64,000 nucleotides of DNA from Spirochaetales bacterium (GTDB lineage: Bacteria > Spirochaetota > Spirochaetia > SZUA-6 > JAFGRV01). Shown piece after piece: positions 31,356 to 54,569 of the stretch. The notes under the pieces are model-generated. The model did not search any database, was not told where the DNA came from, and was given only the letters and a program-made list of their open reading frames with translations. A program made the translations under genes and the position numbers. Positions within the stretch are counted from its first letter, which is position 1, and every line of letters starts with the position of its first letter. The stretch covers positions 1 to 64,000 of the forward strand of contig JAFGHO010000105.1 in assembly GCA_016930085.1 (NCBI GenBank), written 5' to 3'.

Positions 31356-31371
31356 ACCGTCCGGATATGCC

Positions 31372-32877: not shown

Positions 32878-32900
32878 TCGCTATAACGGGGATTGCATGT

Positions 32901-34067: not shown

Positions 34068-34945
34068 ATGTCATGCGATTTATAAAACGAATCTTTCTTC
34101 TGTTGTATTTTTGTACCGGTATGCCGTTTTTCTATTTTATTTTTTTCAGAAGGCGCGGCCGCATTTTGACCTATCACCGGATCAACGACGACTCGAACGA
34201 TTTTCTCAGTATTTCACCGCACGCCTTCGAACGGCACATGGCATACCTGAGTCGCCGGTACACGGTCGTTCCACTCGAACGGATGGCGGCTTCATTGGCG
34301 GACGGCGCCTCACCGGAAACGGATACGGTCGCGATCACTTTCGACGACGGCTACCGGGATAATTACCTCTATGCTTTTCCGGTATTGAGAAAATACGGAT
34401 TTCCCGCCACGATATTCCTCGTGACGTCATTTGTCGGCACATCGCATGTTTTTGAATGGGATCGTCATCAGCGGGCGCAACAGGATAAATATCTCATGGG
34501 CTGGGATGAAGTGGAGGAAATGGCGCGGACCGGAATCAGCTTCGGGGCGCATACGCAAACACATCCCGTCCTGACGGCAATTTCTTTGGAAAAAGCCCGG
34601 GAAGAAATAACGGGTTCCGCTTATGTATTGAAGAAACGGTTGGGCCGTGTCACGGCGTTTGCCTATCCGCGAGGGGAACGGCGGGATGTCAACCATACAC
34701 TGAAACAGATGGTAAGGGAAACGGGCGTTGCCTGTGCGGTCACCACCGTAAGCGGCACCAACACGCGGCATTCGGATATTTTCGGGCTTAAGCGCTGGGC
34801 GGTTGAAAAACCGGACGCTTCCCTTTGGGCTTTCCGGATGCTTATGGCCGGGGGTTCCAGTCTCTTTCATCAATTGACGCGCCATTCGCGGTTCGCACAA
34901 TGGTGGAGGAAAAAAACGAAAAACAAAGGCGGTAAAAGGGTATAG
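34064..34945 (+). CDS. Polysaccharide deacetylase family (NodB/CE4) protein
   Basis: 293 residues. An N-terminal TM (about 8-26) anchors it. The CE4 catalytic motifs are ITFDDGYRDNY (base Asp and first metal Asp, about residues 92-102) and SFGAHTQTHPVLT (the two metal His residues, about 165). AFAYPRGERRDVN is the following conserved motif. It removes N-acetyl groups from a sugar of the polymer or its lipid-linked precursor. The GTG start overlaps the stop of the glycosyltransferase; ATG three codons later is an alternative. Confidence 0.9.
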   Translation: MNVMRFIKRIFLLLYFCTGMPFFYFIFFRRRGRILTYHRINDDSNDFLSISPHAFERHMAYLSRRYTVVPLERMAASLADGASPETDTVAITFDDGYRDNYLYAFPVLRKYGFPATIFLVTSFVGTSHVFEWDRHQRAQQDKYLMGWDEVEEMARTGISFGAHTQTHPVLTAISLEKAREEITGSAYVLKKRLGRVTAFAYPRGERRDVNHTLKQMVRETGVACAVTTVSGTNTRHSDIFGLKRWAVEKPDASLWAFRMLMAGGSSLFHQLTRHSRFAQWWRKKTKNKGGKRV

Positions 34946-34993
34946 TATGATTTATACGATCGATATAGATCGCCGGGAGAGGAAGGGGAGAGG

Positions 34994-37551: not shown

Positions 37552-37590
37552 TCGTCCTTTCGGGAAATAATCGGAATCAAAGGAGAGAAA

Positions 37591-38814
37591 ATGAACATAT
37601 TGCTGGTTTCTCCGTATTTGCCGGAAGCGGAGTCCATGGGGGGGATGAGGCGTTTTGTGCGTTTTATGCATTACCTCGAGTCCCGACATAATGTTTATAC
37701 CGTGTGCCTGGATAACCGTACACAGACCTTTTCGACGCCGGAACGGATGGATCCGGAACGTGTCTTTGTGGTGAAACGGGATAAAGAAGGGATCATCAAA
37801 AAAATTGTGACACACCTGTTCAGGTTGAAACCTTCATATGTCGTCAAGAACTATACGAAGACAATGGCGAAAGAAATAAAGCGGATCGTTTCAGAATACG
37901 ACATCGATCTGGTCCATATCGAGTTCATCTATATGGGCGATTACGCATGTGCCGTATCGGATGAACGGTGTGTAAAAGTGCTGGTGGATCAGGAACTTAA
38001 TTTTCGACGCATTGAACGTGAACTCAAATATACCGCTTCCCTGCCGAAACGATTGCAGCTTCTCCTCTATCATTTCAAATTCAAGCGATATGAAGTCAAT
38101 ATATGCCGTTATTTCGACAGCATCTATACGACAACCAGGCACGAAAAAGAATTACTCGAGATGCACGCGGGAGTAAAATCGCGCGGTTCGTTCGAGGTGT
38201 ATGCCAACGTCATCGATTCGGCATATTTTCGTCCGGATATATCGATAAAGGAGGAACCCACGGGTTTGATTTTTACCGGCAATTACCGGCACAATCCCAA
38301 CGCAATGGCCGTCGACTGGTTTTACAGGCACGTTTTCCCGATTATTGAGGCTGCGATTAACGGGGTGATATGGTACATTGTCGGTCCCGATCCCGGTAAC
38401 GGGATAAAGTCCTTCGCATCGGACCCCCGGATCATCGTCACCGGTGCCGTCGACGACATACGGCCGTATCTCGCCAGGGCCGCCATTTTCATCAATCCGG
38501 TCGTTTCCGGCGGGGGGATGCGGGGGAAGGTGCTGGAAGCGATGGCGATGCATAAACCGGTCGTATCGACCACCATCGGCATGGAAGGCATCGAGGTCCG
38601 GCCTGATCATGATGCCTTTGTCCGGGATACCCCGGAGGCGTTCGCAGAAGGGGTCGTCACCCTTATGAAATCGGCTTCGTTACGCAAGGAAATCGGCGCA
38701 AACGGAAGGAGACTGGTGGAAGAAAAATATGACGACCGTACGGTGTTTGCCTTTATGGAAAGACGATACAAGGCGCTTGTTGACGTTAAAAGGCGGAAAA
38801 GCCAATTCGAATGA
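37591..38814 (+). CDS. Glycosyltransferase family 4
   Basis: 407 residues with AAAGGAG before the ATG. The donor domain shows IFTGNYRHNPNAMAVDWFY and VSGGGMRGKVLEAMAMHKPV, the latter giving the glutamate-bearing loop of GT4 enzymes. The pattern is close to the PEP-CTERM/XrtA-locus sugar transferases (TIGR03087-like), though no exosortase is visible. The stop overlaps the flippase start (ATGA). Confidence 0.88.
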   Translation: MNILLVSPYLPEAESMGGMRRFVRFMHYLESRHNVYTVCLDNRTQTFSTPERMDPERVFVVKRDKEGIIKKIVTHLFRLKPSYVVKNYTKTMAKEIKRIVSEYDIDLVHIEFIYMGDYACAVSDERCVKVLVDQELNFRRIERELKYTASLPKRLQLLLYHFKFKRYEVNICRYFDSIYTTTRHEKELLEMHAGVKSRGSFEVYANVIDSAYFRPDISIKEEPTGLIFTGNYRHNPNAMAVDWFYRHVFPIIEAAINGVIWYIVGPDPGNGIKSFASDPRIIVTGAVDDIRPYLARAAIFINPVVSGGGMRGKVLEAMAMHKPVVSTTIGMEGIEVRPDHDAFVRDTPEAFAEGVVTLMKSASLRKEIGANGRRLVEEKYDDRTVFAFMERRYKALVDVKRRKSQFE

Positions 38815-40244
38815 ACATACAAAGCCGGTTTTATCGAACACTTAAGAATATCATCATGACACTCATAACACAGGGGACCGCACCCTTTCTTTCATTGATA
38901 CTGATCGTGTTTATCGCCCGTTCTCTGGGTGTCTCCGAATTGGGCAAGTTCACCTTTCTTACGACGCTTTTTACCGTGTTTCAGGTGGTCAGTGCCTTGA
39001 GTTTTAATTTTCTGATTACCCGTGAAATCGCACAATACAAGACGGAGGCAAAAAAACTCTATGCCAGTTTCAGTCTATTGGGATCGTGTATTTCGTTATT
39101 GTTTATCGCAGCCTCGGGTTCTTTTGTAATGGTAATGGGTTATTCTTCCGACATGGTGCTTGCCAACTGGATTATCGCGATCGGCCTGCTTCCTTCATTC
39201 TGGACCGCGATAAATGAAGCCGTGTTCATGGTTTATGAAAGAAACGAACTGATAACGACAATTACGATCATTGAAAATGCCTTCAAGATTGTGTGCGCGG
39301 TGGTCATTGTCATGTCGGGCAGGGGGATTGTCATGATCGCCGTTGTTCTTGCAGCGGGCAGGTTTTTGAATGCCTTCATCGGCATTCTTTTCGTGAATAG
39401 AAAGTTTTTTACCTTTTCATTTTCAATAGACTTCAAGGCGATCGGTCGATTGATAAAGGACGCGCCCGTTTTCAGTTTTATTTATTCGCTTTCGACCCTG
39501 TTCATCTCCATGGATGTACTGATGCTTTCGAAGATAAAGACGGAATATGAAGTCGGGTTGTATACGTCGGCCTATAAAATCGCCGCTATTTTAAAAATAC
39601 TGTCGGACAGTATTGTGATCGTTCTTTTTCCACTTCTCTCGGATGCCTTTAAAAACGATAAAGACCTGTTTAGAAAGATGACGGTAAAAGTCCTCCAATA
39701 CCTTATCCTTGTATTTTTACCGATCAGCCTGATGATGACCTTCTTCGCAAAGGAACTGGTCCTGCTTTTCTTCGGCCATGCGTATGTTTCAAGTACGATG
39801 ACACTGCAATTATTGATCTGGGCCATGTTCGGCAATGTCGGGCATTCTCTGCTGGGTAATTCGCTGATGGCCGGTCATCACCAGAAGGATGTGCTGAAAA
39901 TCATGTTTTTTTCGACCATATTGAACGGTATCCTCAATTATATTTTCATCATGTTGTGGAATTACGACGGGGCCGCATTTGCCACGCTTGTTTCTTCGAA
40001 CATCCTTTTCTTGCTTTGTGTGATCGTCGTCAACAGGAGGTTGTTCGGCATCGATACGATATCATGTCTGGTGAAGCCTTTTGTCTGTATTGTCGTAACC
40101 GGGATACCGGTTTATTTTCTGGTCCGGCATTATTCGGTTTATTATGCTTTTTTGGTACCGCTTCTGTATTTTCCATTGATGTTTTTGATAAAGGGAATAG
40201 GGAAGGAGGATATCAGGTTCATTAAAAGGATCGTCAAATTGTGA
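38811..40244 (+). CDS. Lipid-linked oligosaccharide flippase (Wzx-like)
   Basis: 477 residues with about 14 TM helices of the MOP exporter superfamily. Segments such as LILIVFIARSLGVSELGKF in TM1-2 and NWIIAIGLLPSFWTAINEAV match polysaccharide flippases. It turns the undecaprenyl-pyrophosphate repeat unit to the periplasmic face for the polymerase. It is translationally coupled to the preceding glycosyltransferase. Confidence 0.9.
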   Translation: MNIQSRFYRTLKNIIMTLITQGTAPFLSLILIVFIARSLGVSELGKFTFLTTLFTVFQVVSALSFNFLITREIAQYKTEAKKLYASFSLLGSCISLLFIAASGSFVMVMGYSSDMVLANWIIAIGLLPSFWTAINEAVFMVYERNELITTITIIENAFKIVCAVVIVMSGRGIVMIAVVLAAGRFLNAFIGILFVNRKFFTFSFSIDFKAIGRLIKDAPVFSFIYSLSTLFISMDVLMLSKIKTEYEVGLYTSAYKIAAILKILSDSIVIVLFPLLSDAFKNDKDLFRKMTVKVLQYLILVFLPISLMMTFFAKELVLLFFGHAYVSSTMTLQLLIWAMFGNVGHSLLGNSLMAGHHQKDVLKIMFFSTILNGILNYIFIMLWNYDGAAFATLVSSNILFLLCVIVVNRRLFGIDTISCLVKPFVCIVVTGIPVYFLVRHYSVYYAFLVPLLYFPLMFLIKGIGKEDIRFIKRIVKL

Positions 40245-40399
40245 TTGCCGCAATGATGGCGCCTGTCGGAGAAAGGATTCAATAATAAAATAATGTCACG
40301 AAGCTGGAAATTCCAAAAAAATGGTATATCATTATACAGGATACCGCGTTTGATTATCGTATATTCAAAAAAGAATTAATGGTAAAGGATATTATCGTT

Positions 40400-41488
40400 A
40401 TGAAGACTCGTCTGAAATTCTCTTTCGTCTTTATGGTTTGTTTTGCCGCCGTTGCGTTGTCCGGCTGTTTACTGAACCATATCGAGGAGGAATATATTCA
40501 ATTGGGAATGTCTCCCCACGCATGCGGCGATGAAAGCGTGTGGACGGATACCGATATTGAAGACACCTATATCAAAATGGCCGACGGGGGTGTCGATGTC
40601 GTCATTTACAGGCATCATTGGGCCGATGACGAACCGTCTTTGGGGGAATATGCGTTGACGACGCTTGATTACGAGATCGGCAAGGCACGGCGGCACGGGA
40701 TGAAGTTCGCGTTGATCTACAATATCATCGACAGTTCCTCTTTGGGAGTGTATCCGGACGGTATCGATCCCTCCGGGTCATTCGACAGCGCGGTGTTTTA
40801 CGAAAACTTTCTGCTGCTGGTCAACCAGCTGCTCGTTTTATATCGGGATGATATCGATTATTTTTTTATCGGCAATGAAGTAAATCAATACCTTTTCAAC
40901 AATCGCGGACTGATAAATCCTTTTTTAATGTTTTGCGGAATCGTCAGGGAATACTTTCGGCTGAATGCGCCGGAAATTCCCGTCGGTGTCGTCTGTTCAT
41001 ATCATGAGGCCCGCAGTGACGGAGCACTCTCCATGGTTGCTGATATCGCGGAGTTTTGCGATGTTCTCGGATTCACGGTATACATGCAATATGACAGTTC
41101 CAGGCCCACCCTGGAAAACACTTGTTCATATTTCAAGGAGATGATACAATATTTTGACGGCGTACCGCTTGCCGTTATTGAAACGGCCTGGAGTTCGGCG
41201 GGAGTAGGTGGAAGTATCATGGGGCAGATCGACTACATTTACCGGCTGGAGCTGGTCCTGCGGAGGTACAGGCGATATTTCATGTTCTTTTCATGGTTCA
41301 ATCTTCATGATTTTTCTCCTTCAATGAGTGTCCTGATGGCGATCAAATACGATCATCCCGCTTATAGTGAGGAGGATCGGCGTGAGTTTTATGAGTTTCT
41401 GTCGACACTCGCGCTCATCGATAATGATTGTCATGAAAAACCGGCATGGCTTGCATGGAAGGGTATCATAAGCCCACTCAGTCCGTAA
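40400..41488 (+). CDS. Glycosidase-like lipoprotein (TIM barrel)
   Basis: About 362 residues. ATG 40400 is favoured because it gives a compact signal peptide with lipobox VALSGC (Cys about 23). The mature part has the strand order of clan GH-A glycosidases, with two well-placed glutamates: YFFIGNEVNQYL (acid/base position, about residue 160) and LAVIETAWSS (nucleophile position, about 265). It recalls GH53 or GH39-type enzymes but no family could be fixed. It could trim or degrade the exported polymer at the cell surface. 130 bases of non-coding DNA precede it. Confidence 0.7.
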   Translation: MKTRLKFSFVFMVCFAAVALSGCLLNHIEEEYIQLGMSPHACGDESVWTDTDIEDTYIKMADGGVDVVIYRHHWADDEPSLGEYALTTLDYEIGKARRHGMKFALIYNIIDSSSLGVYPDGIDPSGSFDSAVFYENFLLLVNQLLVLYRDDIDYFFIGNEVNQYLFNNRGLINPFLMFCGIVREYFRLNAPEIPVGVVCSYHEARSDGALSMVADIAEFCDVLGFTVYMQYDSSRPTLENTCSYFKEMIQYFDGVPLAVIETAWSSAGVGGSIMGQIDYIYRLELVLRRYRRYFMFFSWFNLHDFSPSMSVLMAIKYDHPAYSEEDRREFYEFLSTLALIDNDCHEKPAWLAWKGIISPLSP

Positions 41489-41563
41489 GCGGAATCGGTT
41501 TTAATTATTGATGCGGCCGATAATTGTGCAATAACGAAAATATATGACGTGTGAAGGAGATAT

Positions 41564-42661
41564 ATGAGAATCAAATCCCTTGTTCAAGCCGGTTTTAACG
41601 CCTTTCACTATGTACGCCAATACGCTTCCATGAAAACGGGTCTCAATATAGGCAAACCGACAAATATTTATATCGCCATCACCCATCATTGTAATTTCAG
41701 GTGCAGGATGTGCCATGACTGGATGATAAAGACGCCGGAATTGTCGCACGGGCAATGGCTGAGCGCTTTGAAAAAACTTTTTGCCTGGCTGCCGCGCGGG
41801 ACAAAAATCAATTTCAGCGGCGGAGAACCGCTGGTATTGCGGTTTTTTCCCGACTTGTTGAAGGAATTGCATTCGGAAAAACATAACTGGTCTCGTCATT
41901 TGATCGGCATAACCTCAAATGGATTTTTCCTGGATGAGTCTGTGGCGGCGGCAATGATGAAACTCGATCTCTTTAATATCAATGTGTCCCTGGATTCCCT
42001 CGACGGCCGCAAGCATGACGAGTTGCGGGGAAAGAAAGGGGCTTTTGAGCGGTTGCTGAACGCGATAGATTCTCTCACACGGCAGAAAAAGCGATACAAC
42101 GCGCATACCACGCTTATTTTAAAGACGGTTATCTCGGGCGCGAATCTCCACGAACTGGCGGATATTATACGGTTTGCGCGTGACAAACACATATCCGGCG
42201 TTTATTTTCAGCCGATCGAACAGACGTTCGGCGACAAACCGGATAAAAACTGGTACAAAAAAAGTGAACTGTGGCCTGATAATATGTCCGATGTCAAAAC
42301 CGTCCTGAAAGAGGTGGGCCGGCTCAAGGATGAAGGTTATCCTGTCCTGAATTCCGGAATCCACCTGAACTCGATGATCGATTATTTCCATAATCCCCTG
42401 CGGAAAAATAGCCGTATGTGCCCCCTGGGTTATTCGACAATGTTTATTTATCCCGACGGCACGATGTTCCTTTGTCCTGCCTTCGGCGGTATCGGCAATC
42501 TTTCAAGCGGAAACATAGAGGAAATATGGAAAAGCAAAAAAGCCGATAAAAAGAGGGCTTCAATGAAAAAATGCAGCAAACAATGCCTGCTTACCTGTCT
42601 TTATCAAAGCGGCCTTCATGAAAAGGCAAGGGCATTTCTGGGGCTGATGAAAAATGCGTGA
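41564..42661 (+). CDS. Radical SAM protein with SPASM domain
   Basis: 365 residues, GAAGGAG before the ATG. The radical-SAM cluster is HHCNFRCRMCHDW (CxxxCxxC, about residue 46-53), followed by INFSGGEPLVL. The C-terminal SPASM region carries further cysteines for auxiliary clusters: CPLGYSTMFIYPDG, FLCPAFGGIGNLSSGN and KKCSKQCLLTC. SPASM proteins usually modify peptides, but members in glycan loci also act on sugars (for example alcohol dehydrogenation, as in BtrN-type chemistry). The role here is unknown. Confidence 0.87.
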   Translation: MRIKSLVQAGFNAFHYVRQYASMKTGLNIGKPTNIYIAITHHCNFRCRMCHDWMIKTPELSHGQWLSALKKLFAWLPRGTKINFSGGEPLVLRFFPDLLKELHSEKHNWSRHLIGITSNGFFLDESVAAAMMKLDLFNINVSLDSLDGRKHDELRGKKGAFERLLNAIDSLTRQKKRYNAHTTLILKTVISGANLHELADIIRFARDKHISGVYFQPIEQTFGDKPDKNWYKKSELWPDNMSDVKTVLKEVGRLKDEGYPVLNSGIHLNSMIDYFHNPLRKNSRMCPLGYSTMFIYPDGTMFLCPAFGGIGNLSSGNIEEIWKSKKADKKRASMKKCSKQCLLTCLYQSGLHEKARAFLGLMKNA

Positions 42662-42784
42662 GTCCGGCCGGAAACGGAAAGCCGCGCCGGATGGTTTACG
42701 GTTCGATATAATTAAAGGCGGTTCTTTTGTAAAAAGGACAGCACGCATCTCCTTGATGAACATGAATAGAGAGAGGGTATTCGC

Positions 42785-43828
42785 ATGACGGGGAAAAAAG
42801 GTATGGTTTCCGTTGTCCTTTTGAACTGGAACGGAAAGCGATTTATTACGGATTGTCTCAGGACGCTTTTCGAACAGGATTACCGGCCGCTCGAATTAAT
42901 AATCATCGATAATGCTTCAACAGACGCCTCTCCCGGGGATATATCGGTGTTTCTGGAAAATACGCCCAAACCTGACGGCGATTTCAGGGTCGTGTATAAG
43001 GAAAATAAAGCAAATCTGGGTTTTTCGAAAGCCATGAATCAAGGGATTTCAATGGCGCACGGCGAGTATATCCTCCTCTGTAATTTTGATATCCGTCTGA
43101 ACACCGATTTCATCACCGAAGCGGTGAACGCCGTCAATGAGGCGCCGGATGTCGGGGGGGTATCGGGAAAGCTCTTGGTCTGGCATGATGGCGGAGACAG
43201 CAACCGGCTTATTGATTCAACCGGCATGTTTCTGGATTATTTTAGAACCCCCATCGACAGGGGGCAGGGTGAAGCCGATAACGGGCAATACGATACATGC
43301 CGGGATATTCTTTGTCCGTGTGGGGCGCTCCCGCTTTACAGAAGGACAATGCTCGAAGATATAAAGATCGACAAAGGGTTTTTTGACAATACCTTTTTCG
43401 CGTATTATGAAGATATGGATTTGGGATTGAGGGCGCGGTTGAGGGGATGGCGGTTCCTTTTCTGTGCGTATGCGGTGGCATATCACTACCGGGGAGGAGC
43501 GAGCAAGCTGTTCGGACGGGCGGACAGAAAAAAGGTGATGTTGGCGCAGATGGAGGCGATAAAGAACCGTTACCTGATGATGGTAAAGAACGAACGGTTT
43601 ACGACAATTGTCGTTCATTTACCGTACCTCGTTCCGTATGAAATCATCCGTTTTTTTTATCTATTGCTGCGGTTCCCCAAATGTATGAAAAGCTATTTCC
43701 GGTTTATTATGACGCTGCCGACGGCGTTAAAATATAGAAGAATAATCCAGGCTTCCCGTACCGTGTCAAACTCATATATGAGAAAATATATTTTATCCCG
43801 TAACAGGGCGTTGACCTCAGGCGTGTGA
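42785..43828 (+). CDS. Glycosyltransferase family 2
   Basis: 347 residues with the GT-A fold: VSVVLLNWNGKRFITDCL at the start, LIIIDNASTDASP, and the metal-binding region YILLCNFDIRLNTDFI. The acceptor segment CGALPLYRRTML and YYEDMDLGLRARLRGWRF match rhamnosyltransferase-like GT2 enzymes. It ends with a probable membrane-associated helix. The start follows a purine-rich AGAGAGAGGG. It is last in the plus-strand run before the convergent initiating transferase. Confidence 0.9.
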   Translation: MTGKKGMVSVVLLNWNGKRFITDCLRTLFEQDYRPLELIIIDNASTDASPGDISVFLENTPKPDGDFRVVYKENKANLGFSKAMNQGISMAHGEYILLCNFDIRLNTDFITEAVNAVNEAPDVGGVSGKLLVWHDGGDSNRLIDSTGMFLDYFRTPIDRGQGEADNGQYDTCRDILCPCGALPLYRRTMLEDIKIDKGFFDNTFFAYYEDMDLGLRARLRGWRFLFCAYAVAYHYRGGASKLFGRADRKKVMLAQMEAIKNRYLMMVKNERFTTIVVHLPYLVPYEIIRFFYLLLRFPKCMKSYFRFIMTLPTALKYRRIIQASRTVSNSYMRKYILSRNRALTSGV

Positions 43829-43948
43829 CCGGTATTCCGGTTATGTAATTCGTCTTGCACCAAAACCATGCCGAAATATCCGGGGTTTCCCGTCACGAAT
43901 ATTTGACGCCGTTGCGCGTACAGGTTTATCGATAGCGGGAAGTACGAG

Positions 43949-45376
43949 TCAGGAGGCGCCCTTCCGGCTGAAAACCGCCGGTATGGTTTTTAATAAAATG
44001 AAAATATCTTCTTTAAGCGACCAGTTGTCGATATAATCCATATCGAGCCGCATCCATTCGTCGAATGATATATTATTACGGCCCGATATTTGCCATTTGC
44101 ACGTGATACCGGGAAGAACACTGAATCGTCGCTTTTGCCAGTCCTCGTTGAATCCGTTATAATCCCTGATGGGCAGGGGGCGCGGTCCGACCAGACTCAT
44201 GTCACCTCTGATCACATTTATCAGTTGGGGCAGTTCGTCGATGCTTGTTGCTCTGAGGATTTTCCCTATTTTGGTGATCCGCGGATCGTTCTTGATCTTG
44301 AACACAGGCCCATCCATTTCGTTTTTATTTTCAAGCGAATGAATCTGCTTCTCGGCATCACGGACCATGGTGCGAAATTTGTATAATTTGAAAACCCGCT
44401 TATTATACCCCACACGGTCCTGTACGAATAAAACGGGACCGGGTGACGTCAGGAAAATTAGAAACCCGGCTAAAATAAGAAGTGGTGAAAAAACCAGAAG
44501 TGCCATGCCGCCGACTATGACATCGAGTATTCTTTTTACAAGATATTTCTTTTCCCCATAATGGGTTGGAGAAATAGTCGTGACGGTAAAATTTTCAAGG
44601 TGTTCCGTTCTTACGCGTCCAAGACATGTTTCAAAAGCCTGAGAAATGAAACGAATTAGAATGCCCTGTTCTTCGGCTTTCATTATGATCTGCCTGATGG
44701 CGTCATAATATGACTTGATTGTAATACCTATAAATATCTCATCGACGACATTATTGGCGACGATTCCGGGGAAATCGTCCAGTGAACCCAACAGGTTTAT
44801 ATCGGCATCGGGGACATGTTTTTCGTTATCAAGAAACCCCAGGACGCGGTATCCCAGCGATTTTTTTTCTTCAATTGTCCTGCTGAAATCGATTGTTTTT
44901 TGATTGGATCCGATGATGAGGGCGAACCGCAGATTCCTGCCCCGTATACGAAGATTTTTTATAAATATCCGTATGAGTGTTCTTGCAACAATCGAGAACG
45001 CCAGACCGCATATCCAGAAAATGACCATAAAAGCCGGCGACAAGAACGGTAAACGCAATATATGCGCACTAAAGAAAAACAACGCGCAGAAAATACCGAC
45101 AGCTAAGAAGATATCTTTCCATTCGTTTATTAATGTTCCCATTCGCCGCGAGCCGTAAAGGTTGAAGACCTTGAAAAGGACATACCAGGTTATCGTCATT
45201 ATATAAATGTACACCAATGATATTATGCTTATTTGTATGGAAAAAACCGCCTGAAAAAAATCCGCATCGTCAAATCGATTGGCCAGATGAAACGCCATTA
45301 AAAATGCTGAAACAAGCATTAAAAGATCGGAGGCTTTTAATAATTTCATACTCAGATTTCTTTTAAAACTGAACAA
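43949..45376 (-). CDS. Initiating sugar-phosphate transferase (WbaP/WcaJ-type)
   Basis: 475 residues. Four N-terminal TM helices (about 10-115) lead to a Rossmann-like domain (FALIIGSNQKTIDFSRTI) and one further TM. The bacterial sugar transferase domain (about 280-475) has KRILDVIVGGMALLVFSPL, FVQDRVGYNKRVFKLYKF with FRTMVRDAE, and ATSIDELPQL with MSLVGPRPLP. It transfers a hexose-1-phosphate to undecaprenyl phosphate, the first step of repeat-unit assembly. The start is TTG 45376 after AAAGGAAA; ATG 45349 is an alternative. It is transcribed against the main operon. Confidence 0.93.
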   Translation of the reverse strand: MFSFKRNLSMKLLKASDLLMLVSAFLMAFHLANRFDDADFFQAVFSIQISIISLVYIYIMTITWYVLFKVFNLYGSRRMGTLINEWKDIFLAVGIFCALFFFSAHILRLPFLSPAFMVIFWICGLAFSIVARTLIRIFIKNLRIRGRNLRFALIIGSNQKTIDFSRTIEEKKSLGYRVLGFLDNEKHVPDADINLLGSLDDFPGIVANNVVDEIFIGITIKSYYDAIRQIIMKAEEQGILIRFISQAFETCLGRVRTEHLENFTVTTISPTHYGEKKYLVKRILDVIVGGMALLVFSPLLILAGFLIFLTSPGPVLFVQDRVGYNKRVFKLYKFRTMVRDAEKQIHSLENKNEMDGPVFKIKNDPRITKIGKILRATSIDELPQLINVIRGDMSLVGPRPLPIRDYNGFNEDWQKRRFSVLPGITCKWQISGRNNISFDEWMRLDMDYIDNWSLKEDIFILLKTIPAVFSRKGAS

Positions 45377-45938
45377 CCGCTTTCCTTTCTCTCTTTCAAT
45401 GACTAATGTAGCGCTTTTTTTTCAAAAAAACATTAATACTGATTATTTTTGTTTAGAATAAACAGATAAAAGTTAATCATATTTATTGTATAATATGCAT
45501 ACCGCACGGTCATCGATGCTGTTGGTTGGTTTCCTGCATCTTTCCTTGTCAACTTGATAAGGTAAAAACGGGATAACAACGTGCTATGATACCATTTTTT
45601 GTATGGTATCCTATCACATATCGCCTGATTTGTCAATATTGATGTCTGTTTGGGAGTAATCACCTTATAGTTGTCGCGTGGAGAGGGGTGATGAAAAAAA
45701 ATATGAAATAACAGAGATTGAAAATCGGGATTGTATGGCTAATGGTTTTTTCTTCGACAGACCGTTGTATGGCGACGGGTATTTCGATGATGCCGATAGG
45801 TGTGTGATCAAACAGACACCGATATTGGGTTTGCAACAAGCGTATAAATATGATATAACGATGTGATGCATCATAAAGCAGAAAACGTGTGAACAGGGGA
45901 CACCCTCTTTTTTCTATGATACAATATGGAGATGAACA
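45377..45938. other. Divergent regulatory spacer
   Basis: 560 bases without a credible gene between the initiating transferase and a methyltransferase, which point away from each other. The region is AT-rich. It contains the GATACCAT/ATGGTATC inverted repeat at 45588-45610. A 62-codon open frame at 45678-45866 has no proper start signal and is not supported. Confidence 0.5.
45588..45610. promoter_or_regulatory. Inverted repeat in divergent promoter region
   Basis: GATACCAT (45588-45595) and ATGGTATC (45603-45610) are perfectly complementary around a seven-base TTTTTGT spacer. The position between divergent genes suits a shared operator, though it could also form a hairpin. Confidence 0.4.
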
Positions 45939-46889
45939 ATGACAAGCCAGCAATGCCCGATTTGCGATGAGAAAATGAAGAATACCGGATTATGCGGAAA
46001 TACATGGAAGATTGTTCAATGTCGGACCTGTTCTCTCGCCAAAACGATTGTTCCGGAAGCCGGCCGTCATGATGATTATTATGAAAAGGATTATTTTTCA
46101 GGCGTAAGCGGGAAAGACTTTTTTTCCGATTTCATGCAGGATAATGATAAGAAGCGTTTTTACAACATTTTGCAGAAATTGGATTTTTATAAAAAAGATA
46201 ATGCACGCCTTCTGGATATCGGCTGTGCGATGGGTGATTTCTTGGTACTCGCACGGGAAAAGGGGTGGCGGGTCCATGGGATTGAAAAATCTTCCTATGC
46301 CGCGCAACAGGCAAGAAGCAGATTGAATGCCGATGTTCATTGCGGAGACCTTTCAGAAGATTTTTTCCCATCGGATTATTTTGATGTTGTTACCCTTCAT
46401 CACACGCTTGAACATATTGAAGATCCGGTGAGAGATTTATCCGTTATATATAATTGGCTTAATAAAGAAGGTGTTATATTTGTTGAAGTCCCCAATTTCG
46501 GTTCGCTGGAATCCAGAATCTACCGTGATCAATGGGAAGACCTTCGCCCCGAACAGCATGTGAGCCACTTTTCTCCCCGTTCGCTGAAAAAGCTGCTTGA
46601 AAAAACCGGCTTTCATGTTCTTCGCGTGGAAACGCGTATCATCCATCCATGGCATTCGCACTGCGTTATCGATTATCTTCACATGTTCACGCACTTATTT
46701 ATGAATCACCATAAAGCGAGTGCGGAAAGCGGTAAAAAAAAGACTATTGCGGGTAATCACAAGAATCATAGAAGCAATCTATCCGGAATAGTGAACTCAC
46801 TGAGTTGGCTGCTTTTCCGGCCATGGACCTTGATCGAAGAGAAACTGACGCTGGCCAAGCGATTAATTGCGTTTGCCCGTAAATTGTAA
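45939..46889 (+). CDS. SAM-dependent methyltransferase with N-terminal zinc ribbon
   Basis: 316 residues. CPICDEKM and QCRTCSLAK form a CxxC...CxxC zinc ribbon at the N-terminus. The class I methyltransferase core has LLDIGCAMGDFLVLAREKG (SAM loop, about residue 92) and VVTLHHTLEHIEDPVRDL, typical of the Methyltransf_23/11 group found in glycan and secondary-metabolite clusters. A C-terminal hydrophobic segment resembles the membrane-associating end of related enzymes. It probably methylates a sugar hydroxyl or phosphate of the polymer. Confidence 0.88.
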   Translation: MTSQQCPICDEKMKNTGLCGNTWKIVQCRTCSLAKTIVPEAGRHDDYYEKDYFSGVSGKDFFSDFMQDNDKKRFYNILQKLDFYKKDNARLLDIGCAMGDFLVLAREKGWRVHGIEKSSYAAQQARSRLNADVHCGDLSEDFFPSDYFDVVTLHHTLEHIEDPVRDLSVIYNWLNKEGVIFVEVPNFGSLESRIYRDQWEDLRPEQHVSHFSPRSLKKLLEKTGFHVLRVETRIIHPWHSHCVIDYLHMFTHLFMNHHKASAESGKKKTIAGNHKNHRSNLSGIVNSLSWLLFRPWTLIEEKLTLAKRLIAFARKL

Positions 46890-46935
46890 TAAATATCCTC
46901 ACATGTATCGATAACCGGATTGGAAAGGAAATAAA

Positions 46936-48318
46936 GTGCGGGTCCTGTTTAATGTATCCTCGATAAAAGCGCAAGAATTACTGCCTTATCAGGAATATCC
47001 GTTCGGGCTACTCTCTCTGGTAAGTTACCTGAACGCCCGTCTGTCTGAACTCACTTCGAAAATCATTGTGGGAGAACTCGAAGACAGCGATATCAATGAT
47101 TTTGCCCCCGATGTGATCGGTCTGTCAGCCACTTCGGTGATATTTTCGGCAACGGTAGCCACTGTCGAGCGAATCAGAAAACTGGATTCGCATATCCCTA
47201 TCGTCATCGGCGGCGCGCATATATCGTTCCTGCCGCACAATTTACCTTTGAAAGCCGATGTCGCTGTTTTGGGAGAAGGTGAAATTACCTTTTATGAATT
47301 GTGTCGATTGTTTATGAGAAAAAAAGGCCTGCCGTCGGAAGAACTGAGGCATATTAAAGGTATCGCTTTCCGGGAAAACGGGGAATTAATCCGTACGGAC
47401 AAAAATCCGCTTCTCGATATAAAGGATGTACCTGTCATTGAATGTCATGACATCTGTGAGTTCAAAGAGAAAAAAGAGCTGCACTTTCATGTCATGACTT
47501 CCCGCGGCTGTCCGTATAAATGCCGTTTCTGTGCTTCGTCCTGGTTCTGGGGTAAAATTCGTCAGCAGACGCCGGAGGCAACCGTGAACCAGATTCAATA
47601 TATTGTCGAAAAGTATTCGCCCGAGTTTATGCACATTTTTGACGATTTGTTCACGTTTAACAAATCGAGACTGAAGGAGATTCAGCGGCTGATCGTCGAA
47701 AGAAAATTGCATAAAAAAACCGCGTTTGAGTGCTGGGTGTCGGGAAATACCTTTGATGAGGAAGTCGCCCGGTTGCTGAAGGAGATGAATGTTGTCTTTG
47801 TCAGTTTCGGCCTGGAAAGCGGCTCTCCTAAAATATACAAATACCTGAAGGGAAGCTGGAATTCGCCGGAAAAAAATAAAAAAGCGGTAGAACTGGCGCA
47901 CCGGTACGGATTTATCATCAATACATCAATGATCATAGGAATACCGGGAGAGACGATCGAGGATATGAAGATGACATATGATTACATCAAATCCCTGCCC
48001 ATCGATGACGGGGATTTGCACCTTCTAACCCCGTATCCGGGAACAGAGGTGTGGCGTTATGCCAGGGAAAGGAATCTTGTTACCGAAACAATGGATGACT
48101 GGCATGTGTTGGAATATAGGAATTTGACGGATCCCAGAACGATCTATCTGGGTGATACCGTATCAAGGGCCGATACGCTCGCTTTTTTTAATAAGATATC
48201 CGGGCTGCTGGCAAGAAAAAGATTACGAAGCAAGCTGGTGAGAAGAATCGGTATCATCCTGCATCCCCGGCGTTTACTGCGAAGATTAGGGATAAAGACT
48301 ATGGCCTCAAGAATATAA
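46936..48318 (+). CDS. B12-binding-domain radical SAM protein (second copy)
   Basis: 460 residues, starting at GTG 46936 after GGAAAGGAA. The architecture is the same as the protein at 36166-37551. The N-terminal domain has YPFGLLSLVSYLNAR, IVIGGAHISFLPHNL and VAVLGEGEITF. The radical-SAM motif is TSRGCPYKCRFCASSWFW, followed by VSFGLESGSPKIYKYLK and NTSMIIGIPGETIEDM. The two copies share order and motif spacing but differ widely in sequence, so they probably act on different substrates. It follows the methyltransferase gene by 46 bases and is likely co-transcribed. Confidence 0.87.
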   Translation: MRVLFNVSSIKAQELLPYQEYPFGLLSLVSYLNARLSELTSKIIVGELEDSDINDFAPDVIGLSATSVIFSATVATVERIRKLDSHIPIVIGGAHISFLPHNLPLKADVAVLGEGEITFYELCRLFMRKKGLPSEELRHIKGIAFRENGELIRTDKNPLLDIKDVPVIECHDICEFKEKKELHFHVMTSRGCPYKCRFCASSWFWGKIRQQTPEATVNQIQYIVEKYSPEFMHIFDDLFTFNKSRLKEIQRLIVERKLHKKTAFECWVSGNTFDEEVARLLKEMNVVFVSFGLESGSPKIYKYLKGSWNSPEKNKKAVELAHRYGFIINTSMIIGIPGETIEDMKMTYDYIKSLPIDDGDLHLLTPYPGTEVWRYARERNLVTETMDDWHVLEYRNLTDPRTIYLGDTVSRADTLAFFNKISGLLARKRLRSKLVRRIGIILHPRRLLRRLGIKTMASRI

Positions 48319-48451
48319 TCGTCAAAAAACCCGAATAGGTGAGCGGAAAGCGTTCGAAGAATTTTCACGCAAAAAATCCGGTGTTGAAATAACGCATTTA
48401 TGTCAGGAGAACGAACGTAATAATATACGGTACCGCGCGCGAGTCTTCGGG

Positions 48452-49918
48452 TTAATCCACCGGTTTGGGTTTTCCCCACGAACCGTCTTTTTTCTTTTCC
48501 GCATACATAATGGTAATCGTTTCATCCACGGGTGAAACACTGGCAAAATAGAGTGTATTTCCGTCTGCGGTAAAAGATGCTTCACCGACAAGAGGCAGTC
48601 CCACATCCAGATGTTGTACGGGCATCCATCTGTTTTTCGCATCTTTACGTGAAAAGTAAATCTGGGTATCCCCTTTTTTTGAATTCGTTCGATTAAAATA
48701 ACATTCGGTACCCTTGTCGTTCATCCATATCTGGGATTCATCTTCGGAAGTATTGATGACGGGTCCCATATTCACCGGAGAAGACCATTTTCCGGATGCT
48801 TCGAGTTCACAGGAATAAATGTCGAACCCTCCACGCCCTCCCGGTCTGTTTGATTCGAAATAGAGTGTCTTCTCGTCATATGATATATGGGGATTGTCCT
48901 CGACATGTCTTGTGTTGATGGGACTGCCGAGGTTTTTCGCTTTTCCCCAAATACCGTCCTTGTTTTTATAGACGACATATATATCATCATCAAGATGTTC
49001 GGGGGTTTCACCACGCGCAAAGTAAAAGACGGTGTTCGTCTTGTTCGGCATCCCCGAGTGATCCGCATACATTGTATTAAAAGGCAGGTTGGTGATATTA
49101 CCCCAATGTCCGTCGGGTTGTTTGTAAGCGACATAGAGGTCGGAATCGTCCTTACCCGGATTAAAATGATGCCCCGCCCTCGGAGGGCCTTTGATATTCA
49201 AATTTCCTTTTACCATGTCTATGCAGTTCAGCTGTGTGTACATGAAATAGAGTCTGTTTCCGTCGCGGGAGATATACGGAGAGTCCTGCCATCCCAATGT
49301 GTTGATTTTATCCGTAACAATTCCGCTATTACCGTTTTCACTGCTTCCCGAGGCCGGCTGTTGTAACGGTTCGATGGCAATGTCGTCGAGCCAAAGTTTT
49401 CCGTTCGGTTTTGAAAAGGTCATCAGAACCATATACAACTCGTAGGTATTAAGCGGTATCGCTTCCGAATAGGAGAATTCCGTAAAGTCATCCGATACGC
49501 CGGCTTTGACCAGATGTTCCGCTTCCACGCCGGTACCCGCAATAAATACTCCCAACTCCGCCCCTTCCGCTTTCAGTTTTCCGCTGATATTGATTTCTTT
49601 CCCTCTGAAATCGGAAACCGATATCTTTTGTTTTAATGTCAGCGCCCCGGTTCCTTCCGAGGATTGGCTGCCTATTGTAATCAGCAGGCTCTGGTTTCCA
49701 TCCGCTTTATTCTGTCTGTCGAAAAAAAACGTTCCTTTATCGGCATTTTCAATGATCCAGCCCGCAGGCCGCGAAAAGCTTTCCTTCTCAAAACTTCCGT
49801 TTTTCAGGATTGACGCCTCATCCGACGATTCATCCGTAACACCGATCATCGTGACGATCAATATGAGAAGTATAACGCTGATGCCGATAACGAAAGCCGC
49901 TTTTTTCATTTTTGCCAT
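48452..49918 (-). CDS. Membrane-anchored protein with carbohydrate-binding-like and PD40 propeller domains
   Basis: 488 residues. The N-terminus is one hydrophobic segment (about 8-27), either an uncleaved anchor or a signal. Residues about 38-185 resemble a CBM4/9-type jelly roll (NGSFEKESFSRPAGW, a KLWLDDIAIEP strand near the end). Residues about 205-488 hold PD40/WD40-like propeller repeats with the recurring DxYxxxKxxDGxWGxxxNLG element and ISYDEKTLYFESNRPGGRGG. It may bind polysaccharide at the periplasmic or outer face. The GGAG signal fits the start. Whether it belongs to polymer assembly or surface retention is unknown. Confidence 0.75.
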   Translation of the reverse strand: MAKMKKAAFVIGISVILLILIVTMIGVTDESSDEASILKNGSFEKESFSRPAGWIIENADKGTFFFDRQNKADGNQSLLITIGSQSSEGTGALTLKQKISVSDFRGKEINISGKLKAEGAELGVFIAGTGVEAEHLVKAGVSDDFTEFSYSEAIPLNTYELYMVLMTFSKPNGKLWLDDIAIEPLQQPASGSSENGNSGIVTDKINTLGWQDSPYISRDGNRLYFMYTQLNCIDMVKGNLNIKGPPRAGHHFNPGKDDSDLYVAYKQPDGHWGNITNLPFNTMYADHSGMPNKTNTVFYFARGETPEHLDDDIYVVYKNKDGIWGKAKNLGSPINTRHVEDNPHISYDEKTLYFESNRPGGRGGFDIYSCELEASGKWSSPVNMGPVINTSEDESQIWMNDKGTECYFNRTNSKKGDTQIYFSRKDAKNRWMPVQHLDVGLPLVGEASFTADGNTLYFASVSPVDETITIMYAEKKKDGSWGKPKPVD

Positions 49919-49985
49919 ATCTTTCTCCTTGTATAATTATCTCGCTATGAAATTCTTTGTTTACATTTGAGTATCCATAGACAGA

Positions 49986-50729
49986 TCAGATTTTCCTTAA
50001 AATTAAATAATAGCCGGAATATTTATTATAAAATGTCGTTAGTGCTTTATCCAGTTTATCAAAGATTGCATTACCCTGTAAAGTGTGCATCGTGTTCAAA
50101 ATAATCGTAAGCGGGCCGTCAATGTAGAGTGAAAACAAAGGGAATAATTCCAGTAATTTGCAGAACGATTTGTTTTTTTCCAGACACCGGGCGATCTGGG
50201 CTTTACTTAAAAATGTGAATTTCGAAGGTAACAGGGATTTTATGATTCTTTTAAAGATTGTATCTGTTTCATCGAGTCGCGGTACCACGGAAAACAGATA
50301 CACCAGATAGGCAATACTGAAGCGGTCTGATAACTCCCAGAAAATCAATCCGCCCGGCTTAACGAGACGAATATATTGAGGCAGTATCCGCCACCACCTG
50401 GGGACAAGAAAGGTTGCCCCGTATTCATGCAGGACGTCAAAATAATTGTCCGGCAATTCATGTATTTTATCCATATTCTGGATATCGCCATGGATGAGAC
50501 GCGCGTCGGGAACGCGTTTTCCGGCTATTTTTAGGTTTTCGCTTACATAGTCTATTCCCCAGAGTTCACCATCGGTCACATGGCGGGATGCCAATGCCAG
50601 TTCATTACCGTGCCCGCATCCTATATCGATAAAGCGCTGTCCGGGCTTCAGGTATTTCTGAAAGAGTGTGTTTATTTTTCTTTGTTTTGTTTCAAGGTGC
50701 CATGCTAAAAAGGGATTCTTTTTTTTCAT
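49986..50729 (-). CDS. SAM-dependent methyltransferase
   Basis: 247 residues. The SAM loop is FIDIGCGHGNELAL (about residue 36-48), followed by LWGIDYVSENLKIA and ARLIHGDIQNMDKI, then LVKPGGLIFWELSDRF. This is a class I methyltransferase of the Methyltransf_25/31 type. It lies between the PD40 gene and the Wza-like gene on the minus strand; a likely terminator separates it from the latter. Confidence 0.82.
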   Translation of the reverse strand: MKKKNPFLAWHLETKQRKINTLFQKYLKPGQRFIDIGCGHGNELALASRHVTDGELWGIDYVSENLKIAGKRVPDARLIHGDIQNMDKIHELPDNYFDVLHEYGATFLVPRWWRILPQYIRLVKPGGLIFWELSDRFSIAYLVYLFSVVPRLDETDTIFKRIIKSLLPSKFTFLSKAQIARCLEKNKSFCKLLELFPLFSLYIDGPLTIILNTMHTLQGNAIFDKLDKALTTFYNKYSGYYLILRKI

Positions 50730-50776
50730 CCGGCCATATTATAAACTATACGCCGTTTTGGCAACGGTGCATGTGA

Positions 50777-50802
50777 AAACCACCCTCACGGAACGGTGGT
50801 TT
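50777..50802 (-). terminator. Intrinsic terminator of the UXS/Wza-like unit
   Basis: On the minus strand AAACCACC and GGTGGTTT pair around a 10-base loop and run into TTTTC, 12 bases past the Wza-like stop codon. Confidence 0.6.
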
Positions 50803-50813
50803 CCGGTAATTTT

Positions 50814-51515
50814 CTATTCGAAGGTGACCTTTCTGGGTATAAAGATTATATCTTTTGGTTCAAGAATGATATCGTTGTTGACGCCGCCTTCTTTAAACTC
50901 CGCGGTCAAATCGAGAATAATTATTTCCGGTCTGGCAGTACCCTTGTTTCTGAGTACGACGACTTCCTTTTTAAAAGCCCAATCGGTAAACCCGCCCGCC
51001 TTGATAATTGCCTGAAGGCAGGTAAGGCCGCCCCGGAGGGAAATCGCTCCGGGCTGTAGTACTTCTCCTCCCACATAAATGAAAAAAGCGGCGAATTCCT
51101 GAACAATGACGGAAATATCCGGGTTTTTAATTTTTTGTGAATAAACCGAGGTAAGGTACTCATCCAGTTCTTCCGGCTGTAAGCCGGCTGCCCGCACATC
51201 ATCGATCAATTGCAATGTGATTTTTCCGTCCGGCCGGATGGTTACTTTTTTATTTAAGGAAGGGTGATAATAAAATTGAATTTCGATTGTATCTCCCGCT
51301 TGCAGCACATACGGTTTCGGTTCCGCGGGAGGAACCACATACCCTGTCCCGCTTGTTGTTTTGACGGACGGATTAACTATAGGAATATCCTGACAGCCAG
51401 TGCCGGTGAGTGCAATGAAAAGTATACATAAAAAAAAGAGTATTCCATTAATCAATTTTTTTCCCTGATTTCCAGGGATTCGTTTGCCTAATATGCTTCG
51501 ATATCGACTAATCAT
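50814..51515 (-). CDS. Polysaccharide export lipoprotein (Wza-like)
   Basis: 233 residues. ATG 51515 is chosen because it gives a lipoprotein signal peptide with lipobox TGTGC (Cys about 41). The longer frame to 51779 would place the signal inside the protein. The mature part has the Poly_export domain (YVLQAGDTIEIQFYYHPSL) and one SLBB domain (FIYVGGEVLQPGAISLRGG, then CLQAIIKAGGFTDWA). It should form the outer-membrane export channel opposite the Wzz-like protein, although it is shorter than E. coli Wza and has one SLBB domain. The 250 bases to the UXS gene hold no separate gene. Confidence 0.9.
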   Translation of the reverse strand: MISRYRSILGKRIPGNQGKKLINGILFFLCILFIALTGTGCQDIPIVNPSVKTTSGTGYVVPPAEPKPYVLQAGDTIEIQFYYHPSLNKKVTIRPDGKITLQLIDDVRAAGLQPEELDEYLTSVYSQKIKNPDISVIVQEFAAFFIYVGGEVLQPGAISLRGGLTCLQAIIKAGGFTDWAFKKEVVVLRNKGTARPEIIILDLTAEFKEGGVNNDIILEPKDIIFIPRKVTFE

Positions 51516-51771
51516 GATCGTATCATCCCATCCCTTTATGTTGATATATATGCAGGCGGGTATACCGCTTTCCCCTGCAATTACCATTATGCCTATCAAA
51601 ACTTGTTGGGTTAATGGCAATGCCTTGTAATTTTTATGCTTACGTTGATACTCGATTCTACCCTGAAACCGGTTGTTTTTCAAGACGTTCGCCACCGTTA
51701 TTTTGCGTTTGATCTTGACGGTAGATAACCGGACGTCATCGATACCTGTGAACATTGGGGAAAGCCCGGTC

Positions 51772-52728
51772 TTATTCACTTTTCAGTAATCTTTCGAAGT
51801 ACTCGATTGTTTTCAATAATCCTTGTTCGATCTGTATTTCCGGTTCCCAGTTCAATTCTTTTTTTGCAAGGCTGATATCGGGCTGTCTTTGCTTTGGATC
51901 GTCTTTTGGCAACGGCATATAAACGATGCTGCTTTTTGAGTTTGTAAGTTTTTTAATCATTTCAGCCAACTCGATGATTGTAAACTCGGCGGGATTGCCG
52001 AGATTAACCGGTCCCGGAAACTCGTCTCGACTATTCATCATCATGATCATGCCGTTCACCAGGTCGTCGACGTAACAGAAGCTTCTTGTCTGCTCGCCGG
52101 TCCCATAAACGGTAATATCTTTTCCAAGTAATGCCTGGCTGATGAAATTCGAAATTACCCGGCCGTCGTGGGGGTGCATATTCGGTCCATAGGTATTGAA
52201 AATCCTGATAACCTTTATTTTCAGCTTATGCTGTCTGTAATAATCAAAAAACAACGTTTCGGCACATCTTTTCCCCTCGTCGTAGCACGCACGGGGCCCA
52301 ATCGGATTGACATTGCCCAGATATGATTCCGGTTGCGGATGGATCCTTGGATCGCCGTATATCTCGGATGTCGATGCCTGTAGTATTTTTATTTTCAGTC
52401 TTTTTGCCAATCCCAGCATATTTATCGCACCGACGACACTCGCTTTCGTTGTCTGTACGGGATCGAATTGATAATGAATCGGGCTCGCGGGACAGGCCAG
52501 GTTGTATACCTCGTCGACTTCGATATATAAAGGCCATGTGATATCATGGCGTATCAACTCAAAAGAATCGTAGTCCATCAGGCCTCTTATATTCCGTTTG
52601 GTACCGGTAAAAAAATTATCGATACATAGTACCTCGCATCCTTTTTGCAGCAGGTTTTTACATAAATGAGAACCGATAAAACCGGCGCCGCCTGTAATTA
52701 AAATCCGATTATTACGATATCGTTTCAT
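51772..52728 (-). CDS. UDP-glucuronate decarboxylase (UDP-xylose synthase)-like SDR
   Basis: 318 residues of the extended SDR family. The NAD-binding loop is [15 protein letters not shown]. The substrate loop [19 protein letters not shown] and the active-site region [17 protein letters not shown] (YxxxK, and the RxCYDEGKR signature of UXS enzymes) identify it. It converts UDP-glucuronate to UDP-xylose, a likely donor for the polymer. AAGGA lies upstream of the ATG. It is first in the minus-strand unit that ends with the Wza-like gene. Confidence 0.9.
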
Positions 52729-53029: not shown

Positions 53030-53761
53030 TCAGAGGAGAAGAAGATTGACCAGAAAGAGGAGGTGGTTTCGCACATATCTTCCTGTTTCCAGCTCGATAT
53101 CGATATCCCAGATAGTTCCCTGAAAGCCCTCCTGTTCCACGGTATGCAATGAAAGTTCTTTTGTCTGATCTTCCAGCTTTTTTGTCAGCGTACCGTAGAA
53201 GGACCGCTGGTTCGTGAAAAAACTCATTAGCCGGTCTATGTTCGATATTGTGTAAAATGCTTCATCGGATAATCGGTTTTTGAGTGTCTCATCATCGAGC
53301 AGCGTTTTAAAAATACTTTTTTTATTGAATGTCGCTCGATTGAGTGTCGAAAGAATCTCGTCGTAGTATAGATCGACCTCGGTTTTTATAATATCTCCGT
53401 CCTGGTCCGAAAAAAGGAATCCGCTTCGCCGAAGAAGGAGTTCGCGTATATGCAGAAGCAATTCGGTGATATGTGCGAGATAGCCGTCAGCTGTGCGATA
53501 AAAGGAGATCATATCGGTCTGGTTGGTAATGAGCGTTTCAAACTCCCGAATATGAGTTTCCAGTTTTGTGTAGATGGCGTAGTTCGCGGGATTATCGGGA
53601 AGAAGGTGTGTCCCGCCCGCAAGGCGTTGCGAGCTTTTTTGGGTATTTTCACCGGCGTTCTCAAGGATACGATTGAGATAAATGAGAGATGATTCCGCAC
53701 GAAGAGTGGAAACAAGCATAACGGAAAATAAAATATACCATACATATCTATGCGGATGCAT
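53030..53761 (-). CDS. Flagellin-fold protein with a Sec signal peptide
   Basis: 243 residues. Residues 1-22 form a signal peptide (hydrophobic YILFSVMLVSTL, cleavage after LRA). The rest follows flagellin domain order. In the N-terminal D0/D1 part, TQKSSQRLAGGTHLLPDNPA lines up with the ..Q.S..RLSSG..IN.A.DDA block. FYRTADGYLAHITELLLHIR then ELLLRR lines up with the Q.AEG.L.E....L.R.REL block, and EILSTLNRATFNKKSIF with the EID.IA..T.FNG..L block. At the C-terminal end, NQRSFYGTLTKKLEDQ and GTIWDIDIELETGRYVRNHLL match the QR..LGA..NRLE and I.D.D.A.E......NQIL blocks. The variable D2/D3 region is missing. Flagellins are normally exported by the flagellar type III apparatus without a signal peptide, so Sec export is unusual. 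AAAGG precedes ATG 53761. Confidence 0.65.
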   Translation of the reverse strand: MHPHRYVWYILFSVMLVSTLRAESSLIYLNRILENAGENTQKSSQRLAGGTHLLPDNPANYAIYTKLETHIREFETLITNQTDMISFYRTADGYLAHITELLLHIRELLLRRSGFLFSDQDGDIIKTEVDLYYDEILSTLNRATFNKKSIFKTLLDDETLKNRLSDEAFYTISNIDRLMSFFTNQRSFYGTLTKKLEDQTKELSLHTVEQEGFQGTIWDIDIELETGRYVRNHLLFLVNLLLL

Positions 53762-53837
53762 TAATGTCGCCTTTGCTATAAAGGTACTCCGGCGGTATGG
53801 TCTGCGTCAATAGAGAGTACAAATGTGATACTGAATT

Positions 53838-53884
53838 ATTGGCGCTTCTGAAAACCTGCTTTACGGATTTTCAGAAGCGCCAAT
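53838..53884. repeat. 17-bp perfect inverted repeat in a divergent promoter region
   Basis: ATTGGCGCTTCTGAAAA (53838-53854) and TTTTCAGAAGCGCCAAT (53868-53884) are exact complements around 13 bases. It lies between two divergent genes, so a terminator role is unlikely. It could be an operator, a small transposon relic or a structured leader. Confidence 0.6.
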
Positions 53885-53960: not shown

Positions 53961-54569
53961 ATGATAAAAGGAGCAAGACGCTGGAATGACCGGTATGAAA
54001 CCTTTTATACCCAGACAAACAATCCGACTGAAGGGCTTTTAAAAAAACTTGTCAAAAAACTGACCGCCGGCTGGCTTGAAACATGCGGCCCCACCGCTGC
54101 ATGTTCATGTCTTGCCGCGGTCGGTTATGGCCTTTCGATTACAACACCCGGAGGATACAGTCCTCAGCATGAAGAAATACTTTCCGATTTTTTGAATGAT
54201 CCGCGCAATTACGCAAAGCTGGAAGAAATCCGAAAAGGGGTTGAACATATTCCCGGAAACAGGATTCCCCAATTTTATCCCTTTGCCGTAAAGGAAGTAT
54301 ACGGGGCAAAAGGGAAGTTTATGTGGCTCAAAGGGCTTGAGGAGATTGCGCGCATCCTGCAATCAGGAAAGGCGATACAGTTGTGTCTGAAAAAGCCGGG
54401 ACATTATATTGCCGCGGTTGCCTATGACGATGAAACGAATGAGATCATATTCAATGATCCGTGGCCCCAACGGAGTGGTTTGAAAAAAGGCGGTTTTAAC
54501 GAACGGATGGACCGGCGGGAATATGAAACGAACGTACATTCGTTCATTGTCGTCTACGAAGGGGTATGA
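53961..54569 (+). CDS. C39-like cysteine peptidase-fold protein
   Basis: 202 residues, AAGGAGG before the ATG. The catalytic pattern of C39-like (papain-type) peptidases is visible: ETCGPTAACSCLAAVGYG with the nucleophile Cys (about residue 42), GHYIAAVAYDDE with His (about 149), and IIFNDPWPQ with the Asp (about 163). No signal peptide or TM segment, so it appears cytosolic, unlike bacteriocin C39 peptidases, which are fused to ABC transporters. The middle segment is lysine-rich and unrecognised. It could hydrolyse a peptide or amide of unknown identity. Confidence 0.65.
   Translation: MIKGARRWNDRYETFYTQTNNPTEGLLKKLVKKLTAGWLETCGPTAACSCLAAVGYGLSITTPGGYSPQHEEILSDFLNDPRNYAKLEEIRKGVEHIPGNRIPQFYPFAVKEVYGAKGKFMWLKGLEEIARILQSGKAIQLCLKKPGHYIAAVAYDDETNEIIFNDPWPQRSGLKKGGFNERMDRREYETNVHSFIVVYEGV

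Follow-up and report, generated by a model that had tools for sequence, protein, structure and literature searches.

The window analysed here is a stretch of 64,000 nucleotides (positions 1 to 64,000 of contig JAFGHO010000105.1) from a Spirochaetales bacterium. The gene under study stands alone in it, between a polysaccharide locus and a divergent gene for a C39-like peptidase, and its reading frame opens with an ATG preceded by the motif AAAGG (Table 1). The polysaccharide locus is a large exopolysaccharide/O-antigen-like cluster, in which two B12-binding radical SAM-like proteins were named by eye, while the divergent neighbor encodes a Peptidase_C39_2-like protein of 202 amino acids without an obvious signal peptide. 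No flagellar genes lie nearby, and the original prediction that the gene adjoins a polysaccharide locus rather than a flagellar operon was correct for the window. An inverted repeat with 15-base arms lies between the divergent genes; a search of the whole genome found the arm sequence only at this hairpin, which rules out a dispersed repeat upstream of the gene. A sigma-28-like promoter candidate (11/12) was also rejected, as neither the orthologues (best score, 10) nor the FlaB genes (best score, 10) stood convincingly above background. Considering these weak scores elsewhere and the overlap with the hairpin, the site was set aside as evidence.

Table 1. Coordinates of the gene, of the parts of its product, and of neighboring features in the window
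Feature	Coordinates	Strand	Remarks
Whole gene, predicted Sec-signal flagellin-like protein (clade A)	53030..53761	-	243 aa + stop
AAAGG, ribosome-binding-site-like	53770..53774	-	8 bases before ATG; from sequence
Predicted Sec signal peptide, residues 1-22	53696..53761	-	Likely cut LRA|ES; hydropathy and conservation in 13 clade A proteins
N-terminal D0 helix, residues 24-48	53618..53692	-	Alignment and model
ND1a long helix, residues 58-113	53423..53590	-	Model pLDDT 88-98 over most of it; 31% identity to FlaBs
ND1b helix and FN motif, residues 119-146	53324..53407	-	Alignment, model, and identity
Short linker, residues 147-171	53249..53323	-	Replaces a ~68-residue D1 segment of FlaB
CD1 helix, residues 172-218	53108..53248	-	phmmer match and model
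C-terminal D0 helix, residues 222-243	53033..53098	-	15 residues shorter than in FlaB; alignment
Exopolysaccharide/O-antigen-like cluster	29346..52728
B12-binding radical SAM-like proteins	36166..37551, 46936..48318
Peptidase_C39_2-like protein	53961..54569		Divergent neighbor
Inverted repeat	53836..53882		Arms 53840-53854 and 53868-53882
Sigma-28-like promoter candidate	53836..53863	-	Rejected

The sole Pfam family detected on the window protein was Flagellin_N (E value 4.6e-11; 43.4 bits against a cut-off of 26.6), with no match to the FlaA family (PF04620), and 12 of the 13 proteins of its group, here termed clade A, matched Flagellin_N at E <= 0.001. Flagellin_C was matched by 3/13 clade A members and not by the window protein, which showed only a weak pairwise C-terminal match to Leptospira flagellin. 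The latter ranked first in a phmmer search against PDB chains (4e-13), the weak second stretch pairing residues 156-236 with its C-terminal D1/D0 region. NCBIfam models for flagellins and FlgL were matched as well, all far under the family cut-offs, so that the window protein is a relative rather than a member of any named flagellin. Judged by its sequence, it is a bona fide flagellin homologue. An AlphaFold2 model, for which the input alignment held 57 sequences from clade A, a second group (clade B), and FlaB, reached a mean pLDDT of 84.7 (mostly >90 in the D1 helices and ~63-76 in D0) and placed the helices in the order found in flagellin. The top Foldseek match of the model was Leptospira FlaB1 (6pwb; E value 3.7e-7, TM 0.63), and the best three in the PDB (6pwb, 9lrz, and 9ls0) were all Leptospira periplasmic flagellin structures, so that the predicted match to flagellin D0/D1 was borne out by the model. 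The global rmsd was large, about 9-12 Å, probably because the long bundles bend and the angle between D0 and D1 is uncertain. Taken together, the E value, topology, and sequence indicate that the modelled fold is that of flagellin. The original prediction of a complete flagellin fold therefore held for homology and fold (Pfam, phmmer, and Foldseek) and failed for completeness, since part of D1 and the D0 tail are absent.

Clade A comprised 13 proteins across several spirochaete families. In the window's order, a member was detected in 7 of 26 genomes (E < 1e-45), with FlaBs distinctly apart at ~1e-13. Profile searches of 393 spirochaete genomes revealed further carriers (G050, G088, G296, G346, and G099), with a clear gap between clade A (at least 226 bits) and everything else (at most 122 bits). 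Across 84,980 species genomes, a pattern-based scan detected clade A only in Spirochaetales MAGs and added ZodW_Metabat.41. Scanning species genomes with an alignment as the query yielded eight loci, one of them an ordinary FlaB (L080), and with the single window protein as the query no match was obtained. Clade B was present in 14 of the 393 spirochaete genomes. Homologues with the same signal, which the original prediction had proposed to seek among spirochaetes, thus exist as 13 clade A and 14 clade B proteins. In a maximum-likelihood tree from which the signal region was omitted, clade A, clade B, and FlaB formed three groups (support values of 100/100, 100/96, and 98/86, respectively). 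The window protein fell outside the FlaB clade and apart from FlgL, a separate copy of which is encoded in its own genome. Grouping of A with B received support of 50/18, and grouping of B with FlaB was equally good; Sec routing of flagellin in spirochaetes would have arisen once or twice.

The bodies of clade A and clade B proteins consist of D0/D1 only, and clade B proteins carry ~40 additional residues ahead of D0. The stretch between ND1b and CD1 measured 23-24 residues in all clade A members and 26 in all clade B members, compared with ~68 in FlaB; in the window protein, 24 residues separate F151 from D176. Compared with FlaB, clade A retained a mean identity of ~33-34% in ND1a and ND1b, falling to 27% in CD1 and to 22% in CD0; the baseline obtained by shuffling was 6.9%. 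The C terminus of the window protein is level with residue 275 of the 290 in FlaB, and 10 of the 12 clade A members whose C-terminal ends are intact stop between FlaB positions 265 and 283, the other two (L040 and L044) extending further with unrelated tails. Clade A does not conserve the AMLAQAN..LL tail of FlaB, and most members lack it. One very divergent member of 219 amino acids (L052; G099:C674:6775-7434) has lost much of the D0/spoke region and kept its signal peptide. In known complexes, it is the 40 C-terminal residues of flagellin that FliS binds (PMC7248283). According to the alignment, this FliS-binding region is both shortened and altered in the window protein, as would be expected if the type III route had been given up and the region were free to change.

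Flagellins are the textbook cargo of flagellar type III export, and the claim that they, FlaB included, leave without a signal peptide is consistent with our data: all 46 FlaBs that were read out had a flagellin-like start, which the search for starts itself required, together with the usual tail, and none had a signal peptide. The window protein begins with an n-region (MHPHR) followed by a hydrophobic core from residue 10 and a candidate cleavage site after residue 22. Its best 11-residue Kyte-Doolittle window within the first 45 residues reached 2.43, compared with at most 1.23 in 30 FlaBs, and the same measure ranged from 2.43 to 3.62 in the 13 clade A proteins and from 2.16 to 3.36 in the 14 clade B proteins. 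A signal-like N terminus was accordingly seen in 13/13 clade A proteins, 14/14 clade B proteins, and no FlaB; 26 of the 27 A and B proteins have their own start, and the remaining one (L116) runs off its contig on the 5' side. Within clade A, identity in the signal region was only 19%, and the hydrophobic character was retained, a pattern suggestive of a selected signal peptide rather than of a hydrophobic start inherited by chance. This conservation across the clade is a stronger argument for a putative signal than the hydropathy of any single protein, and both support the assignment of residues 1-22 as a signal peptide. After the predicted cut, the mature chain would start about level with FlaB residue 6.

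The window's genome contains five Flagellin_N loci, namely, three FlaBs, FlgL, and the gene described here, and also encodes FliD and FlaA. FliD was found in 39 and FlaA in 40 of 45 genomes, those without a match being three genomes without flagellins and a few others. Among the carriers of clade A or B, only G005 and G019 gave no FliD match and only G005 and G250 no FlaA match, and all of these are 69-78% complete. Carriers thus possess normal filament genes, indicating that the protein coexists with a full filament gene set as an addition and not as a replacement. Replacement of the FliD cap or of the FlaA sheath is unlikely and was rejected, as nearly all carriers have both. The link between these clades and flagella is consistent but statistically weak, considering that flagellin-type genes occur in 352 of the 393 spirochaete genomes anyway. 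As a separate observation, three genomes from family f2 of the same order (G001, G002, and G004; 93-97% complete) had no match for any of the flagellin query, FliD, and FlaA, whereas their relative G003 has all three; flagella have apparently been lost in G001, G002, and G004.

Most clade A and B genes sit among unrelated genes without flagellar neighbors, and among the orthologues examined there was no conserved neighbor and none adjoined polysaccharide export genes. There are a few exceptions. A clade A gene in G016 lies ~5 kb from an FlgL-FlgK pair (FlgK identified by Pfam). The clade B gene of G226 (L128:6774-7598; G226:C94) precedes a Pfam-confirmed flgB-flgC-fliE-fliF-fliG run by 82 bp, all in the same orientation, and that of G218 lies ~1 kb from fliG. 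Flagellar linkage in 2 of the 14 clade B genes is suggestive.

The reading we favor, at slightly better than an even chance, is a flagellar role with Sec routing, in which the window protein acts as a periplasmic flagellin paralogue docking on FlaB filaments. A flagellin paralogue would have exchanged flagellar type III export for Sec; the preprotein would cross the inner membrane through Sec and lose ~22 residues, so that its N terminus would fall short of that of FlaB by only ~5 residues. In the periplasm, where the FlaB filaments lie, the mature chain of 221 residues would then fold into a helical D0/D1 bundle, and its retained D1 surface would most likely dock on these filaments or their ends, outside the export queue. 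Flagellin termini are critical for polymerization (PMC8306008), which, with D0 truncated, argues against a filament of its own, so that the shortened D0 may prevent the protein from building one. In this way, the growth, length, or stability of the filament might be modulated by an accessory beside FliD, FlaA, and the three FlaBs. Actual export and cleavage by Sec, residence in the periplasm, binding to FlaB, and an effect on growth or length are what we infer from these features. Counting against this reading are the lack of flagellar neighbors around the window gene and most of its relatives and the patchy distribution of the family. The original suggestion of a periplasmic-flagellum adaptor, cap, or inhibitor agrees with the distribution and with the clade B gene heading a flagellar run. 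A replacement cap or sheath is unlikely, given that FliD and FlaA are present in nearly all these genomes. A more specific and rather doubtful proposal is that spirochaetes once or twice made a flagellin into a Sec-exported periplasmic regulator, for example, one capping or limiting the free filament end. If so, the export channel would not be alone in setting filament length, which would also be controlled from the periplasm.

A periplasmic or surface protein unrelated to motility, in which a flagellin D0/D1 bundle would have been recruited for an envelope or matrix function and perhaps be tied to the polysaccharide locus, is an unlikely alternative. The polysaccharide export and biosynthesis genes beside the window gene, the unrelated surroundings of most relatives, and a D1 identity to FlaB of only about a third would all suit it, but the polysaccharide neighborhood is not conserved in the orthologues examined, a clade B gene in one genome stands at the head of a flagellar run, and no anchor or outer-membrane signal was seen. 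Somewhat less probable still is an uncleaved signal anchor, by which the bundle would stay tethered to the inner membrane on its periplasmic side and might, for example, guide the filament that runs along this membrane. Most members have good cleavage sites (AGA, ALA, AVA, and GLA) and short, signal-peptide-like cores, which speaks against tethering; it would be possible in L038 and L039, which have no clean -3/-1 site, and the site of the window protein has an arginine at -2.

The location of the spirochaete filament tip in the periplasm and the nearly flagellin-like mature N terminus would also be compatible with a minor filament subunit that, once exported by Sec, joins the FlaB filament from the periplasm. 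We regard this as improbable, since the last 15 D0 residues, among the termini on which polymerization depends, and the D1 segment are absent. The gene is short, unlinked, and in a draft genome, as might be expected of a flagellin pseudogene in decay whose hydrophobic start arose by chance. Such an artefact is refuted by conservation and has a negligible probability, because 12 orthologues, at 24-50% identity to the window protein, keep the linker, the signal, and an open frame.

Docking of a Sec-routed flagellin paralogue on FlaB filaments thus remains our preferred reading, and the open-access literature searched yielded no account of spirochaete flagellins that carry a Sec signal or signal peptide. 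The novelty lies in a putative new export route and compartment logic for a known flagellin fold. Two conserved D0/D1 flagellin lineages with predicted Sec signals imply a filament-like protein that approaches the periplasmic flagellum from the opposite side. Spirochaetes confine their filaments to the periplasm, and such a protein is a concrete candidate for the means by which filament length or stability is controlled there. They also call for caution, as Flagellin_N matches in spirochaete genomes are not all filament subunits.

Among known systems, FlaB shares with the window protein the D0/D1 fold and Flagellin_N and provides its nearest solved structures, but FlaB starts with MIINHN without a signal peptide, has the long ND1b-CD1 segment and the conserved tail, and forms a separate clade. 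The window protein also matched PDB 3k8v, a flagellin homologue, in a sequence search; we take this entry to be the Sphingomonas sp. A1 homologue with a surface role, which differs in being exported to the surface without a Sec signal. FlaA is exported via Sec, and the window protein resembles FlaA and the Fcp-type proteins in its predicted Sec signal, as judged by hydropathy and conservation, whereas it differs from FlaA, FcpA, and FcpB in matching no Pfam family but Flagellin_N. FlaA itself is unrelated to FlaB (PMC7065911). Campylobacter jejuni FlaC is likewise a flagellin of D0-D1 only that has a nonstructural role and is not an ordinary filament subunit (PMC5466977), but FlaC leaves the cell by flagellar type III secretion with FliS, in contrast to the Sec-type signal of the window protein. 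A precedent is FcpB, which has a putative Sec signal, is proposed to be exported by Sec, and has a gene unlinked to other flagellar genes, and which coats the periplasmic filament of Leptospira (PMC5953323), illustrating that a filament partner may have a Sec signal and a gene separate from the flagellar ones.
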